From NCBI RefSeq assembly GCF_900109225.1, contig NZ_FNZK01000001.1, positions 1 through 64,000 of the forward strand: 64,000 nucleotides of DNA. Reading direction: 5' to 3'. Below, piece by piece: positions 10,383-63,973 of the stretch. The DNA is from Propionispira arboris (GTDB lineage Bacteria > Bacillota > Negativicutes > Selenomonadales > Selenomonadaceae). A program made the translations under genes and the position numbers. Under the pieces are notes generated by a model. That model ran no database searches. It was given only the letters and a program-made list of their open reading frames with translations, and was not told the origin of the DNA. Every line of letters begins with the position of its first letter. Position 1 is the stretch's first letter.

Positions 10383-10524
10383 AACGCATTAAATACTTTA
10401 TATGGCAATCGTCAGGAAGGGGGTATAGGTTTGAGTGGCGTTACGTAGGAAGCAAACGATGCCCTATACCTCCTTCCTGGCAGACTGATAGACTGGATGT
10501 AATTTCTTTCATGCGTTATATATA
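10379..10524 (-). repeat. MITE-like repeat, copy A
   Basis: An ~146 bp element fills most of the sbcC-addB gap. It begins with the terminal sequence ATAGAACGCATTAAA and ends with its imperfect inverse. Between these lies a hairpin core: an arm with GTCAGGAAGGGGGTATAGG is matched by CCTATACCTCCTTCCTGGC, and a loop carries GAGTGGCGTTACGTAGGAAG. It is in the opposite orientation to copies at 19119 and 63828. It overlaps the sbcC stop. Confidence 0.85.
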
Positions 10525-26264: not shown

Positions 26265-26378
26265 TATATAGAACGCATTAAAGAAATTACATTTAGTCTG
26301 TCAGTCTGTCAGGAATGGGGTATAGGTATACCCCATTCCTGACAGACTGACAGACTAAATGTTTCATGCCATATATAT
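26265..26378. repeat. MITE-like repeat, copy D (palindromic derivative)
   Basis: It begins with the family end TATATAGAACGCATTAAA and finishes with a decayed inverse. The core is an inverted repeat with 36-base arms, 26289-26324 and 26327-26362, perfectly complementary and separated by only GG. Both arms copy the same half of the family core; the asymmetric loop of the other copies is missing. It lies between iolR and the iol operon promoter. Confidence 0.85.
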
Positions 26379-32676: not shown

Positions 32677-34101
32677 ATGGGACAACAGAAAACACCTAAG
32701 CAATTTTTAAGAACAGTCACAATTATATCTACATTTGGAGGTTTGCTTTTTGGGTATGATACGGGTGTGGTCAATGGTGCATTGCCGTACATGGCACTTC
32801 CCGATCAATTAAATCTTACACCATTTACAGAAGGACTTGTCGCGAGTGGGCTTCTATTTGGAGCGGCAATTGGTTCATTTTTGGGTGGACGCATTTCCGA
32901 TGCAAAGGGTCGCAGAAAAATGCTTTTAATGCTTGCCGTTATTTTCTTTTTTGCAACAATTGGCTGCACATTATCACCAACCGTTGAAGTTATGGTATGC
33001 TTTAGATTTTTGCTGGGGTTAGCAGTTGGGGGTGCATCTGTAACGGTGCCAGCATATTTAGCTGAAATGTCACCAGCGGAAAATCGTGGACGAATGGTTA
33101 CACAAAATGAACTGATGATTGTAACTGGTCAGTTATGTGCTTTTGTTTTTAATGCAATCATTGGTGTAAGTTTTGGTGAAAGCGCACATGTTTGGCGTTA
33201 CATGTTAGTAATTGCCTCGCTTCCAGCGGTTGTGCTCTGGTTTGGAATGCTGGCGATGCCAGAAAGCCCAAGATGGCTTGTGATGAATGGTAAAATTGGT
33301 GAAGCTCTTAAAGTTTTGAAACAGGCCAGAGATGAAGGTCGCGCGATTGCTGAGTTAAATGAAATTCAGGATAATCTGGCACAAGAAACAAGTATTGAAA
33401 AAGCAACACTAAAAGATCTTACAACGCCTTGGGTGAGGCGAATTGTCTTTATCGCTATGGGGATTGCAATTTGCCAGCAGATATCGGGCGTAAATTCAAT
33501 TATGTATTACGGAACGCAGATTTTGCAAAAAGCGGGATTTAGTACAGAAGCAGCACTGATTGGTAACATTGCGAATGGTGTAATTGCGGTGTCGGCTACA
33601 TTTTTTGGCATTTGGATGATGGGCCGTCATGGGCGCCGACCACTCTTAATGACAGGTCAGATTGGTACGATTTGTGCACTGTTTTTAATTGGAACATTTT
33701 CCAATGTATTAGAAGGAACTACCATATTGCCATATGTTGTACTTTCATTGACTGTAACTTTCTTATTTTTTCAACAAGGTTTTTTGTCACCAATTACCTG
33801 GTTGATGCTTTCCGAACTTTTTCCTATGAGGCTCCGTGGTATGGGGATGGGATTAACGGTTTTATGTTTATGGATCACAAATTTCTTCGTTGGTTTAAGT
33901 TTTCCTGTATTAATGGATGCATTTGGACTATCGCATACATTTTTTGCGTTTGTAGGAATTGGTCTTTTTGGGTTACTATTTGCGTATAAATTTGTTCCAG
34001 AAACGAGAGGCCGCTCCTTAGAACAGATCGAACAAGATTTTAGAAATCATGGCAAAAAAAAAGCAGAAACACTGACTAAAGCGAGTACTTCTGCAGAATG
34101 A
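32677..34101 (+). CDS. MFS sugar porter, inositol transporter IolT-like
   Basis: 474 residues with 12 predicted membrane helices. Sugar-porter signatures are present: GGLLFGYDTGVVNGAL in helix 1, GRISDAKGRRKML in the first cytoplasmic loop, PESPRWLVMNGK after helix 6, QQISGVNSIMYYGTQIL in helix 7 and PETRGRSLEQIE at the C-terminus. These match proton-coupled myo-inositol transporters such as IolT, and the position between iolD and iolE supports inositol as substrate. Close family members also carry pentoses or hexoses. Confidence 0.88.
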   Translation: MGQQKTPKQFLRTVTIISTFGGLLFGYDTGVVNGALPYMALPDQLNLTPFTEGLVASGLLFGAAIGSFLGGRISDAKGRRKMLLMLAVIFFFATIGCTLSPTVEVMVCFRFLLGLAVGGASVTVPAYLAEMSPAENRGRMVTQNELMIVTGQLCAFVFNAIIGVSFGESAHVWRYMLVIASLPAVVLWFGMLAMPESPRWLVMNGKIGEALKVLKQARDEGRAIAELNEIQDNLAQETSIEKATLKDLTTPWVRRIVFIAMGIAICQQISGVNSIMYYGTQILQKAGFSTEAALIGNIANGVIAVSATFFGIWMMGRHGRRPLLMTGQIGTICALFLIGTFSNVLEGTTILPYVVLSLTVTFLFFQQGFLSPITWLMLSELFPMRLRGMGMGLTVLCLWITNFFVGLSFPVLMDAFGLSHTFFAFVGIGLFGLLFAYKFVPETRGRSLEQIEQDFRNHGKKKAETLTKASTSAE

Positions 34102-34129
34102 TAAGAGGTGCAGGATGATAATTACATAT

Positions 34130-34224
34130 AAAAAAGAACGCTATGGTTCAGTCCCGCTAAGACCTGAGAACCAGCACTGCAAAGCAGGCCTCGCATAAAT
34201 TGCGAATAACGTCCTAAGTGTTAC
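34130..34224 (-). ncRNA. small RNA candidate between iolT and iolE
   Basis: On the minus strand a consensus promoter (34259-34231) predicts a start near 34224. The following ~90 bases fold into TAAC/GTTA, TCGCA-TAAAT-TGCGA (34205-34191), CTGC-TTT-GCAG (34187-34177) and a longer interrupted stem joining GCTGGTTC (34174-34168 region) to GAACCATAGC. After the last stem comes GTTCTTTTTT (T run 34135-34130), an intrinsic terminator. There is no coding potential. I do not recognise the family. It could be an independent sRNA acting on nearby iol transcripts, or antisense to an iolT-iolE readthrough RNA. Confidence 0.55.
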
Positions 34225-34230
34225 ATCCTA

Positions 34231-34259
34231 ATACTAGAGTTATTTTTTTAACTTGTCAA
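34231..34259 (-). promoter_or_regulatory. minus-strand promoter of the sRNA candidate, with internal palindrome
   Basis: On the minus strand: TTGACA (34259-34254), a spacer of exactly 17 bases and TAGTAT (34236-34231). The spacer itself is a palindrome, AGTTA-A6-TAACT (34253-34238), a possible operator between the two boxes. Confidence 0.6.
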
Positions 34260-34284
34260 TGTCTGATTGAGTTTCTCTGTGTTG

Positions 34285-34326
34285 TTTAACAGCAGGTTAT
34301 CTAATTAATGATAGACTGCTGTTAAA
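34285..34326. promoter_or_regulatory. inverted repeat upstream of iolE
   Basis: TTTAACAGCAG (34285-34295) and CTGCTGTTAAA (34316-34326) are perfect inverses, with a partial GTTATC/GATAGA extension inside. There is no T run on either side, so it is not a standard terminator. It is about 107 bases before iolE and also upstream of the sRNA promoter, so it may be a regulatory site. Confidence 0.4.
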
Positions 34327-34432
34327 ATTAAATTACAATTAAGCTAAGCGAAATTTTTCGGGGAATAGGATGATCAAATGATAAAAAAATTATAAATATA
34401 CAGATTAGTAGAATGAATTGGAGGAAAATGAA

Positions 34433-35320
34433 ATGGCAGATATAACATTGGGTATTGCACCGATTGCTTGGACAAACGATGATATGCCCGATCTTGGAAA
34501 AGAAAATACATTTGAACAATGTGTCAGCGAAATGGCCCTGGCTGGCTTTACAGGGTGCGAAGTTGGTGGTAAATATCCACGAGATACAGAGGTTTTACAA
34601 AAAGCACTAAAACTTCGCAATATGTCAATTGCCAGCGCTTGGTTTAGTTCATTTTTAACAACGAAACCATTACAAGAAACAGTAACGGCTTTTATTGAAC
34701 ATCGGGATTTTCTCTTTGCCATGGGCGCAAAGGTTATTGTTGTTGCTGAACAAGGGCATAGTGTTCAGGGAATGCTCAATACACCCGTATTTGCGGGGAA
34801 ACCATATTTTACAGATATGGAATGGGACAAACTTGTCCAAGGACTTAATAAACTAGGTGAACTGGCAAAAGAAAAGGGCATGAAAGTCGTGTATCATCAT
34901 CATATGGGGACTGGTGTCCAAACTGAAAGTGAAATTGATAAACTGATGGAAATGACAGATCCAGCATTGGTATATCTTTTATTTGATACGGGGCATTTAG
35001 TCTGTTCAGGTGAAGATTATCTGGGCATTCTCCAAAAATACTTACCGCGTATCCAGCATATCCATTTAAAGGATATTCGTAAGAATATAGTTAAACAGGT
35101 TAAGGAAAAAAATATGAGTTTCCTTGATGGCGTTCGAGCTGGTATGTTTACGGTTCCTGGCGATGGAGATGTTGATTTTGCGCCAGTATTTGACCTTGTT
35201 AATAAAAGTCAGTATCAGGGTTGGTATATTGTCGAAGCAGAACAAGATCCAGCTAAGGCAAATCCTCTGGAATATGCACAAATAGCAAGAAAATATATCA
35301 GAGAACAGGCAAAATTGTAA
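34433..35320 (+). CDS. iolE: myo-inosose-2 dehydratase
   Basis: 295 residues, a TIM-barrel enzyme of the xylose-isomerase-like group. It dehydrates scyllo-inosose to trihydroxycyclohexane-dione for IolD. Family features: [16 protein letters not shown] at the N-terminus, [36 protein letters not shown] and [13 protein letters not shown] with metal ligands. ATG 34433 has GGAGG eight bases upstream; an earlier in-frame ATG at 34418 overlaps that site. It is separated from iolD by the transporter and the sRNA region. Confidence 0.93.
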
Positions 35321-35376: not shown

Positions 35377-36897
35377 GTGAAAATAAATATACCTATTTTA
35401 GATGAATTTCTAAAATTGAGGTTGGCTTATTGGCCATATTTATTTCGCAGCAGCTCATTTTTTATAGATGGGGTGATTTTCGTGGGACTTACAATGATTG
35501 TAATCAGTTTACTGTTGCTTATGTTTTTTGCGTATCGAGGTTATTCTATTATTTTTATTGCCCCATTGTTTGCTATTGTAGCTGCGATCGGCAGCGGGCA
35601 TGCAGCTATGCCGATTTATAGTGAGATTTATATGACTAAGGCCGCAGAATATATTAAAACGTATTATCCGGTTTTTTTATTGGGAGCAGTTTTTGCTAAA
35701 ATCATGGAAGAAGGTGGGTTGGCCGCAGCTGTAGCCGAAAAAATTGTATCCACATTGGGAAAAGAAAAAGCGATTCTGGCTATACTTTTGGGGTGTGGTG
35801 TTCTAACATACGGTGGATTAAGTGTATTTGTTGTTGCTTTTGTAATGTATCCGTTTTCAGCAATTTTATTTAAAGAAGCAGATATTCCGAAACGTTTGTT
35901 GCCGGCATTGCTTTGGATGGGGATTTTTACATATAGCATGGTAGCCATCCCGGGAACACCGCAAATTCAAAATATTATTCCAACTTCTTTTTTTGGAACG
36001 ACGACTTGGGCCGGTATAGGGTTGGGGCTTATTGGTGCAGTTCTTTATTTTTTGATTGCCTGGGGCTGGATTCGTCATCGCCATATAAAATTAAAAGCCC
36101 GTGGTGAAGGCTATGGTAAACATGTATTAAATGAGCCAGAGGTAGCAAAAGAAGCTTTACCAGATTGGCGATTGTCAGCATTGCCGCTTCTGTTAGTTAT
36201 TGTTTTAAATTTATTGATAAGTAATCCATTCCATTGGGCGTGGGCCTATCATTGGGATAGCAGCAGTTTGGATTCCTTTTTACCATTAAATTTGTCTTTA
36301 TTGGCATCCAGTGTTGATAAAGTACAGGCAATCTGGTCGATTAATGCAGCACTTGTAATCAGCAGTATAGCAGCTGCTGTGATTGGCAAAAAACGCTTAC
36401 AAGGAAAAGGTGGTGTGGTACATCCCATTAATAGTGGTGCGATTGGGTCAACCAGTGCAATTTTAAATGTTGCTTCTGGGTATGCTTTTGGTTGTGTTAT
36501 TGCGGCCTTACCGGCATTTCAGGTCATTCGAGAAATGCTGTTAGGTATAACTTTTGGCGGCGGACCGCTTTTGTCAGTGATTTTTACGACCAATATTATG
36601 ACGGCAGTGACAGGATCTTCTTCAGGTGGGATGACGATTGCTCTTGGAATGCTGGGACAGCAATGGCTTGATTGGGCACAGCAAATTGGCATGTCACCAG
36701 AAGTTTTACACCGTATAATCTGTATGGCTTCGGAGTGTATAGATACAGTACCTCAAGCTGGGGCATTGGTGACCCTTATGGCAGTTTGTGGGCTTACGCA
36801 CAAAGAATCTTATTATGATGTTATAATTTTAACAGGGCTAAAGACCGCGGTAGTATTTATCTGCTTAGCAATTTATACATTAACTGGACTGGTCTGA
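35377..36897 (+). CDS. GntP-family permease
   Basis: 506 residues with about 12 hydrophobic segments. The block LLLMFFAYRGYSIIFIAPLFAIVAAIGSG and the repeated glycine-rich helices (FLLGAVFAKIMEEGGLA, GSTSAILNVASGYAFG, TAVTGSSSGGMTIALG) point to the GntP gluconate/organic acid:H+ symporter group. GTG 35377 gives the longest protein, but its ribosome site is very close. GTG 35482, preceded by GGGGTG at a better distance, would give a protein starting right before helix 1 and may be the true start. Substrate unknown; it follows iolE by 56 bases and is probably cotranscribed. Confidence 0.75.
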   Translation: MKINIPILDEFLKLRLAYWPYLFRSSSFFIDGVIFVGLTMIVISLLLLMFFAYRGYSIIFIAPLFAIVAAIGSGHAAMPIYSEIYMTKAAEYIKTYYPVFLLGAVFAKIMEEGGLAAAVAEKIVSTLGKEKAILAILLGCGVLTYGGLSVFVVAFVMYPFSAILFKEADIPKRLLPALLWMGIFTYSMVAIPGTPQIQNIIPTSFFGTTTWAGIGLGLIGAVLYFLIAWGWIRHRHIKLKARGEGYGKHVLNEPEVAKEALPDWRLSALPLLLVIVLNLLISNPFHWAWAYHWDSSSLDSFLPLNLSLLASSVDKVQAIWSINAALVISSIAAAVIGKKRLQGKGGVVHPINSGAIGSTSAILNVASGYAFGCVIAALPAFQVIREMLLGITFGGGPLLSVIFTTNIMTAVTGSSSGGMTIALGMLGQQWLDWAQQIGMSPEVLHRIICMASECIDTVPQAGALVTLMAVCGLTHKESYYDVIILTGLKTAVVFICLAIYTLTGLV

Positions 36898-43866: not shown

Positions 43867-44892
43867 TTATAAACCATAAGCAGCGCGGATTTCTTTAAGT
43901 GAAATGGGACGATTTTCCGCTGCGGATTTTTGTGCTGCTAAACCAATGAGTACGGGTTCTAGTCCATCTTGGGCCGTTACCAGAGTTGGCGTATCTTTGA
44001 TAATTGCATTAACAAAGGATGCAATTTCATCAGCATAGGCATTCATGTAACGTTCCAGAAAGAAAAAGAGTGGTTTTTCAGCTACTACACCATTTTTGCC
44101 GCTGAATACTGCATTGGAACTGGAATCATTTTTAATGGAAATTGCCCCGTTTGTTCCGAATACTTCGGCACGCTGGTCATAACCATAACAAGCTTGACGA
44201 CAGTTATCAATGACAGCTGTTGCACCGTTGGCAAGTTTTAATGTTATGATGGCAGTATCAACATCACCAGCTTGACCGATAGCAGGATCTACCGTAACTG
44301 AGCCGGCAGCATAAACTTCTTCTACTTCCGAGCCGGATAAGTAGCGGACCATGTCAAAATCATGAATGGTCATATCGAGGAACATACCACCGGAAATTTT
44401 CACATAATCAATAGAAGGTGGTTCAGGGTCACGTGAGGTGATTTTTATAATTTGTTGCTTGCCGATTTGACCGGCGGCTACAGCTTCCTGAATTGCTTTA
44501 AAGTTATGATCAAAACGACGATTGAAGCCTACTTGATATTTTTTACCGGAGGTTTCAACCACTTTAAGAACTTCTTTGATTTTTTCAATACTGTGATCGA
44601 TTGGTTTTTCACAAAAAACGTGTTTGCCAGCTTGAAGTGCTTCGATAGAAAGTGGCGAATGCTGATCGGTTGATGCACAGATTAATACAGCATCAATGGT
44701 TGGATCGGCCAGTATTTTTTTATAATTCGTATAGGTTTCTTTAATGCCAAGGGAGTTTGCCCAAGCTATTGAATTTTCATTCAGGAATGGGTCTGCTACC
44801 GCCTTTACTTGAGCATTTTTTACATGATTGGAAATACTTTCGCCATGAACGCGGCCAATTCGACCTATGCCAATAATACCAATGTTAATCAT
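43867..44892 (-). CDS. iolG: inositol 2-dehydrogenase
   Basis: 341 residues, a Gfo/Idh/MocA oxidoreductase. The Rossmann motif IGIIGIGRIGRVHGESI is at the N-terminus, then CASTDQHSPLSIEALQAGKHVFCEKPID with the catalytic Lys of EKP. The DMTIHDFDMVRYLSG motif carries the Asp/His pair that binds inositol. It oxidises myo-inositol to scyllo-inosose, the first pathway step. ATG 44892 has GGCGGA upstream and starts directly on the Rossmann strand. It stands apart from the main iol operon, next to the AraC-type genes. Confidence 0.9.
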   Translation of the reverse strand: MINIGIIGIGRIGRVHGESISNHVKNAQVKAVADPFLNENSIAWANSLGIKETYTNYKKILADPTIDAVLICASTDQHSPLSIEALQAGKHVFCEKPIDHSIEKIKEVLKVVETSGKKYQVGFNRRFDHNFKAIQEAVAAGQIGKQQIIKITSRDPEPPSIDYVKISGGMFLDMTIHDFDMVRYLSGSEVEEVYAAGSVTVDPAIGQAGDVDTAIITLKLANGATAVIDNCRQACYGYDQRAEVFGTNGAISIKNDSSSNAVFSGKNGVVAEKPLFFFLERYMNAYADEIASFVNAIIKDTPTLVTAQDGLEPVLIGLAAQKSAAENRPISLKEIRAAYGL

Positions 44893-45229
44893 AATTTTTA
44901 TTCCGCCTTTCAAAATGAGTTCCATTTCGCAGGAACTTGTTAATTTTGTTTTCCAGTATTCATTTTACTGGCTATTATCTTTGGTTTTTGGTAATATAAT
45001 AATAGAGTGATTCGGAAAATGATAACTTTATTGTTATATTATATGTTTGTTTTGATTATCTTTATGTTTAAGTATACGGTGAAATAACAAATATTACCTC
45101 TAGTATTTTGCTTTTTTTGCAAAGAAAAACATTGATTTTTCAGCTCTTTTAATGAGTTTGCTAAATATACTCCAAATTATTGCTTTGTTTATAAATAAAT
45201 ATTAGAATTTTCGATTAACTATAGAGTGG
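44893..45229. promoter_or_regulatory. divergent control region between iolG and the AraC-type gene
   Basis: This 337-base AT-rich gap must hold both divergent promoters. Visible repeats are CCAGTA-N7-TACTGG (around 44953-44971), ATAAC-TTTATT-GTTAT near 45022 and TTTTGC-T-run-GCAAA near 45110. None can be tied to a regulator. Confidence 0.35.
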
Positions 45230-59656: not shown

Positions 59657-60527
59657 TCAACTTGAGCAATGCACATAGACGTAGCGGACAGGAAGTGCCT
59701 TGCCGTCCTTCACAGCTTCTGCTTCTACGGAAAGCAGATATTTAGCACGGCCACGGCATTTCGTATTTTGCTGGTAAATTGCTTTAACATCCTGCATCTT
59801 GCCCTGGTAACGGTAATGCATCTTGCTGGTTTTCTTGGCCATAGCGATGACGTCAAAACCAATATCCTTTATGGCTGTTAATGAAGCTGGAGCGCAGAAC
59901 CATGTGTCAAACAAGACATGCTGTGCAGAAATGCCAGCAGCCTTTGTTTCTTTGAGCAGCTTTAGGACAACATCCGTTGCTTTCAGCTGTGCCAGCTTGC
60001 GTTGCCTACCTCCGTTGGTACGTGGATCTACTTTAGTCGAAGCTTCATTGATCCGATTTTTCTGATTCGCCGTAGACAAAAGGCAATGGCTGACCGGCAG
60101 GAAGGTATTGCCATCTGACCATCCGGGAGTGAGCATACGGAAGCCGAAGGTGTAAAGACCATGAGCATGGGCGAATACCTTCGCCAACAGCTCGACTTTT
60201 TTCGAACGAGACCGGCTAAAGATAGAGTCAGCGATGATAAGTACATTGCGTCTCTTCTCGTCAGTCAATGGCTCAATAGAGTGCCGGATGATACTGAAAC
60301 TCAGCAGTGTAGTGAACTTGCGCCAATTCGTATGGCAGGAATTCATGAAACGGTAGAACGTATCCTTGCCGAATGCAGCGTGTCCGGATATAGATTCATC
60401 TGCATATAGAGAGACTTGTGCTGGAATACGATGCTGACGGCCAGCAGGAAAATCTGCATAGCTGGAATTCCCTTGATTTTGCCGAAAGGCATTCGTCTGA
60501 TGTGTTGTCTTGTGTTATACTTTTCAT
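59657..60527 (-). pseudogene. IS4-family transposase, frameshifted and truncated
   Basis: A 229-codon stretch on the minus strand carries the IS4 DDE core: NVLIIADSIFSRSRSKKVELLAKVF (first Asp), GFRMLTPGWSDGNTFLPV, and VLFDTWFCAPASLTAIKDIGFDVIAMAKK (second Asp). It then runs out at VYVHCSS, before the third catalytic residue. Upstream, from an ATG at 60527, family-like sequence continues in other frames (IPAMQIFLLAVSIVFQHKSLYMQMN), so at least one frameshift separates start and core. Inactive remnant fused to the IS1182 fragment. Confidence 0.8.
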
Positions 60528-63827: not shown

Positions 63828-63973
63828 TATATAGAACGCATTAAAGAAATTCCATCAAGTCTATCAGTCTGCCAGGAATGGGGTATAGGGCATCGTTTGC
63901 TTCCTATGTAACGCCACTCAGCCCTATGCCCCATTTTGACGATTGCCATAAAATGTTTAATGCGTTCTATATA
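63828..63973 (+). repeat. MITE-like repeat, copy E (reference copy)
   Basis: 146 bp bounded by perfect 18-base inverted ends, TATATAGAACGCATTAAA (63828-63845) and its complement (63956-63973). The core has CAGTCTGCCAGGAATGGGG, a loop with ATCGTTTGCTTCCTATGTAA, and a weaker return arm ending CGATTGCCATAAAATG. It has no coding capacity. This is the best-preserved copy of the family and sits in front of the nagZ-like gene. Confidence 0.88.

Follow-up and report, generated by a model that had tools for sequence, protein, structure and literature searches.

The window analysed here, a stretch of 64,000 nucleotides from Propionispira arboris (positions 1 to 64,000 of contig NZ_FNZK01000001.1), contains on its plus strand a gene for an iolT-like sugar porter at 32677-34101 (TIGR00879, 340.7 bits against a cut-off of 237.8), whose substrate we infer from its neighbors to be inositol, and behind it iolE, encoding myo-inosose-2 dehydratase, at 34433-35320 (TIGR04379, 427.6 bits against a cut-off of 290). 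In the profile search, iolC, iolD, and iolE scored above their cut-offs and iolB below its cut-off, and iolG was identified above cut-off at 43867-44925. Between the stop of iolT at 34101 and the ATG of iolE at 34433 lies a genus-specific gap of 331 bp (34102-34432), in which we identified a candidate small RNA of about 95 nt on the minus strand (34130-34224). Its surroundings are thus an iol cluster, as the first-pass annotation had stated; the further description of the candidate as antisense to the surrounding operon was too strong, since with these gene limits neither coding sequence is overlapped by it. The genome encodes Hfq (PF17209, 117.5 bits, cut-off 27).

Several other features were recorded in the window. 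A frame of 506 aa (35377-36897) adjoins iolE, looks like a membrane protein by eye, and matched neither NCBIfam nor Pfam profiles at E 0.001, and a 229-aa minus-strand frame at 59657-60346 is a transposase-like piece carrying most of a DDE_5 domain (PF13546, matched over profile positions 65-230 out of 272). No other fold in the window is as strong (z -16.7) as that of a palindrome at 26272-26376, whose arms measure about 35 bp and which is located between a DeoR-type regulator gene and the iol gene start. It belongs to a dispersed family with at least 73 genome matches at E <= 0.001 (both arms and the palindrome itself counted, 40 of 90 candidates scored), of which 2 further matches are in the window, at 10463-10517 and 63835-63889. 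The other genome of the genus is without 99 bp at this position, so the palindrome has the appearance of a miniature element that was recently inserted ahead of the iol operon.

Signals on the two strands of the gap

The first-pass annotation had read a TTGACA, exactly 17 bases, and a TAGTAT on the minus strand, and these are present (TTGACA at 34259-34254, TAGTAT at 34236-34231), forming a promoter-like site at 34231-34259 with 10 of 12 consensus bases. By itself, the site is as common as in shuffled sequence: sites with at least 9 of 12 consensus bases numbered 12 in 4.5 kb against 16.1 expected, those with at least 10 of 12 numbered 32 in 64 kb against 31.75 (20 shuffles), and when the gap was shuffled, such a site turned up in 588 of 3000 cases.

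Downstream of this site, consecutive hairpins lead to six T's at 34135-34130, again as first described, and the predicted fold of the RNA is a four-way junction ending in U6. Its closing stem P1 has 10 bp, with the 5' arm at 34206-34215 and the 3' arm at 34135-34144 running into the U run (34215-34206 paired with 34144-34135; 3 G-C, 5 A-U, and 2 G-U pairs), and it encloses arm P2 (34191-34205; 5 bp, 5-base loop), arm P3 (34173-34190; 7 bp with one bulge, 3-base loop), and arm P4 (34145-34172; 5 + 6 bp, 3-base bulge, 3-base loop). The junction is predicted to be without unpaired bases, and the last P1 pair takes the first U of U6. The predicted ensemble leaves little unpaired beyond a 5' tail of 9 bases, the short loops, and the 3' U's, and blocking the P1 5' arm (34215-34207) costs 9.4 kcal/mol, leaving -22.6. 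The final GC stem followed by six T's in the first-pass annotation was borne out in its T run, but the stem that abuts the run is a long-range one of 10 bp and not a local GC hairpin, the last local hairpin ending 9 bases short of the U run. The scan for intrinsic terminators gave no entry here; in the predicted fold, the 10-bp stem directly adjoins U6.

For the minus strand over 34128-34224, the computed energy is -32.0 kcal/mol, whereas its shuffles average -22.4 (z -3.3); 0 of 200 shuffles and, in a larger test, 4 of 1000 were as good. Over nearly the same bases the plus strand folds at -23.9 kcal/mol, with 13 of 1000 shuffles as good, and with DNA parameters the z scores were -3.2 for the minus and -2.2 for the plus strand, each against its own shuffles. 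G-U pairs make up 6 of the 33 pairs and would be A-C on the opposite strand, which favors the minus strand as the folded strand over a plain DNA palindrome. Windows of 97 bases reaching z -3.29 numbered 49 of 2131 on the minus and 56 of 2131 on the plus strand (30 shuffles each); the fold alone is modest evidence, with about 2% of windows as good.

We also considered the signals jointly. A promoter-like site with six T's within 50 to 200 bases and a paired stem before them was found 4 times in the window, where 3.05 (20 shuffles) or 2.7 (200 shuffles) were expected. With a strong fold added, 0.05 sites were expected per shuffled 64-kb window (at least 1 in 10 of 200 shuffles, 2 in none), and the real window held 2, namely, the candidate RNA and a strong but short hairpin (roughly 340-400). 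The full composite arose in 5 of 3000 gap shuffles, and in 20 of 3000 when the fold term was omitted. The composite thresholds were set after the element had been seen, and the shuffles do not imitate real terminators, so this rarity is moderate support only.

On the plus strand, an AU-rich, terminator-like hairpin was computed behind iolT at 34204-34249, with its stem leading into a run of seven T's (34243-34249) and with its position overlying the minus-strand promoter-like site. The computed energy of 34200-34250 is -8.9 kcal/mol (z -2.4), and 34204-34247 has z -2.6, with 21 of 1000 shuffles as good; without the U run (34204-34240), z is -1.0, and 161 of 1000 shuffles do as well. The palindrome in the promoter spacer (AGTTA to TAACT), taken earlier to indicate a regulated promoter, is present, but its left half and T run are also explained by this hairpin.

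Nearer to iolE, the perfect 11-bp inverted repeat noted just upstream was confirmed as TTTAACAGCAG-N20-CTGCTGTTAAA at 34285-34326 (arms 34285-34295 and 34316-34326), and arms of this kind arose in 12 of 2000 gap shuffles. It folds well (-19.7 kcal/mol, z -5.9) and has no U run behind it on either strand, which gives it the look of an operator. Over its right arm extends TAGACT-16-TACAAT (34312-34339), which resembles a weak plus-strand promoter ahead of iolE (9 of 12, by consensus match only). In a search of 31 genomes allowing up to 3 mismatches, the repeat was found in the 2 genomes of the genus, and the only occurrence elsewhere was a 2-mismatch palindrome in one other genome; we rejected it as a shared regulon site.

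The earlier statement that no protein could be encoded broadly holds, but at a floor of 20 aa there are three frames, of 23, 24, and 27 aa, that touch the RNA. Minus-strand frames upstream of the RNA (105, 63, and 45 aa) coincide with iolE or its leader and appear mechanical, and upstream of the candidate there is no known minus-strand gene needing a terminator at that place.

Occurrence in related genomes

The RNA is present once in its own genome and once in one other genome of the genus, where it is identical over the RNA, so that the pair offers no base changes in the stems. Divergence between the 2 genomes was 0.1-0.6% per 2-kb bin in six bins covering 30-42 kb, against 2-7% in nine bins covering 0-18 kb; the RNA thus falls within a tract that was shared recently, and the identity of its two copies is uninformative about selection. 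Over positions 1-60000, the divergence of the pair forms a patchwork in which changes cluster sharply at 28.9-29.5 kb; this suggests recombination across the iol region.

The first-pass annotation had proposed a covariance-model search in Negativicutes. We built the model from the two identical rows and the given fold and ran it under strict filters that may lose weak homologues; no convincing match appeared in other genomes of the family or class. A match at E <= 1 was present in 4 of the 189 family genomes, two of these matches being weak and in coding sequence. In the class, 3 of 380 genomes had a match at E <= 0.1, of which one was likewise weak and in coding sequence. The single match at E <= 0.01 in a phylum sample of 398 genomes was the window's own genome. 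The model was also run on 39 iol loci, out of 80 fetched, and none of the 39 gave a match up to E 10. The weak matches in relatives L107 (pheT-like), L025 (peptide-synthetase-like), and L026 (sucC-like), named by our own reading, lie inside long frames with several pairs broken and were taken as chance.

By DNA search, 15 of 60 relatives had a match at E <= 0.1, and those listed from outside the genus were all short, covering 17-42 query bases. Two of the relatives' matches were set aside as coding by our own reading, one (L007) lying inside a 267-aa CbiQ-like frame and the other (L021) in sequence that reads as recN-like. Viral contigs gave 0 exact matches to one 26-base pattern, and phages gave no match at E <= 0.1. 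In the plasmid search, a single 41-base match (E 0.08) came from each of 19 Staphylococcus records, and we likewise took these as chance.

We identified iolE at E <= 1e-100 in 45 of the 189 family genomes. Out of 30 iolE loci compared, 2 are those of the genus itself, with the gap of 331 bp; in 13 others iolT lies directly upstream (0-95 bp away), in 8 the upstream gene is iolD (23-348 bp away), and 7 are without an iol gene in reach. A set of 80 loci from named genomes, overlapping the 30 in part, likewise contained 13 with iolT directly upstream and gaps of 0-95 bp. Given the short iolT-iolE gaps of the relatives, the 331-bp block is a genus-level addition. One relative (L116) also has a long gap, of 348 bp, from iolD to iolE.

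Competing readings of the gap

The best single reading of the gap, though we place it somewhat short of an even chance, is a minus-strand small-RNA gene composed of the promoter-like site and about 95 bases with a predicted four-way junction ending in U6. It is favored because the promoter-like site is well placed, because the minus-strand fold beats both its shuffles and the plus strand and includes G-U pairs, because the full composite is rare among shuffles, because no known minus-strand gene upstream would call for a terminator, and because the gap is far longer than in the 13 relatives, the genome has Hfq, and the small RNAs of a Salmonella inositol cluster set a precedent. It is disfavored because promoter-like sites occur at the shuffled rate, the composite is post hoc, the terminator is unusual, no convincing match exists outside the genus among the genomes searched, and the pairing comparison yielded no target. 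The minus-strand RNA gene originally proposed for the iol cluster stands as the leading reading, with part of its signals explained by the plus-strand hairpin.

That hairpin is central to the next most probable reading, which follows closely: 34102-34249 would be the 3' tail of iolT with an AU-rich intrinsic terminator, 34285-34345 would be the operator and promoter of iolE, and the minus-strand signals would be coincidental. The hairpin within 34200-34250 draws on part of the spacer palindrome (its left half and its T run), the plus-strand promoter-like site overlaps the inverted repeat, and promoter-like sites are no commoner than in shuffles, all as this account would have it; the hairpin is, however, weak and AU-rich and no better than shuffles once its U run is removed, and the stronger minus-strand four-way junction with its G-U pairs is left unexplained. 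Alternatively, the gap could be a structured spacer within a single iolT-iolE transcript, acting in processing or stability, with the 42-bp inverted repeat as an mRNA hairpin. The strong fold of the repeat in the absence of a U run suits such a spacer, as does the nearness of iolT and iolE in the 13 relatives, where one transcript could span both, but terminator-like and promoter-like sites intervene here and 34128-34224 folds better on the minus strand, and we regard the spacer as improbable.

Lower still, we rank a decayed mobile insertion whose ends would have left the fold as a remnant. The absence of the block from relatives, the apparent insertion of another repeat family of the genome elsewhere in the window, and the two occurrences of AGGATGAT, at 34112 and 34367, speak for such an origin; against it, a single copy was found in the genome, 8-base repeats of this kind arise in 356 of 2000 shuffles, and the repeat search gave no inverted repeat at the AGGATGAT ends. 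When the gap was compared with the genome for a miniature mobile element, the other matches at E <= 1 covered only 17-42 bases, and the 42-base match was the inverted repeat matching itself. Least probable of all, and very unlikely in our judgment, is a small protein from the 27-aa plus-strand frame at 34115-34198, which follows directly behind iolT and has an AGAGGT-like ribosome site. Frame and leader are present in the sequence, whereas the RNA region is identical in both genus genomes and hence without a coding signature to compare.

Possible action of the candidate RNA and known systems

Under the small-RNA reading, transcription would start near 34224 and run away from iolE toward the iolT end, and termination would follow from the 10-bp closing stem forming just before the U run. 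Control of inositol genes in trans, as initially suggested, found no backing: of 23 gene starts, taken from some of the window's genes, 0 paired with the RNA better than with 95% of shuffled RNAs, the lowest fraction of equally good shuffles being 7.5% of 200 in a comparison that does not charge for the RNA's own structure. The nearly complete pairing of the predicted ensemble also speaks against a seed-based trans regulator. If the iolT mRNA ended at the plus-strand hairpin (34204-34249), its tail would be a perfect complement of the RNA, and this exact complementarity of a tail reaching to about 34249 makes cis-antisense action the most natural mechanism. The RNA might then pair with the iolT 3' tail and alter its stability or processing, and perhaps also slow convergent polymerases; the outcome would be separate expression of iolT and iolE. 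The inverted repeat at 34285-34326, located between the minus-strand promoter-like site and the weak one of iolE, could serve as an operator coupling both.

Taken as a whole, this model describes a genus-private small RNA that arose within an insertion of roughly 300 bp separating iolT from iolE, a perfect four-way junction with its closing helix serving as terminator, an operator shared with the divergent iolE, and exact antisense complementarity to the iolT 3' tail that sets uptake and breakdown apart; in this full form, we consider it unlikely. Transcription of the candidate would make it an example of a regulatory RNA originating inside a single genus, in an intergenic gap that is missing from the operons of relatives. 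Otherwise, the locus illustrates how a complete transcription unit can be mimicked by promoter letters present by chance, together with an operator and a weak terminator.

Some described Rfam families are compact multi-arm folds, but no Rfam 15 family reaches its gathering score anywhere in the window. With E raised to 10 over 34000-34500, 2 matches appeared (E 5.5 at 34031-34098 and E 6.6 at 34267-34376), both far below gathering scores and outside the RNA. ARAGORN identified 0 tRNA or tmRNA genes in the window, and literature searches on small RNAs in Negativicutes and on Selenomonas and Propionispira turned up nothing on this locus.

Cis-antisense RNAs that overlap the 3' end of a convergent gene are a known kind. 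The candidate resembles them in its opposite strand, its convergence with iolT, and its complementarity to the likely iolT 3' tail; it differs in stopping short of the iolT coding sequence, and both transcripts are here predicted.

A closer likeness in setting is offered by the inositol island of Salmonella, which has 2 small RNAs, RssR (STnc2160) and STnc1740, with transcripts demonstrated by Northern blot (PMC6288124). STnc1740 is placed between iolB and iolT2, and RssR, encoded in the iolB 3' region, is reported to act on the 5' leader of reiD mRNA and raise its stability, to be lost without Hfq, and to affect growth on inositol (PMC6288124). Salmonella is a distant bacterium, the neighboring genes are other ones, and its RNAs were identified as transcripts, whereas the candidate is predicted from sequence; the systems are likened by setting and not by sequence. 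The shared feature is the location within an inositol cluster and beside a transporter gene (PMC6288124), and the P. arboris candidate, if transcribed, would be a further, apparently independent small RNA inside such a cluster after those of Salmonella.
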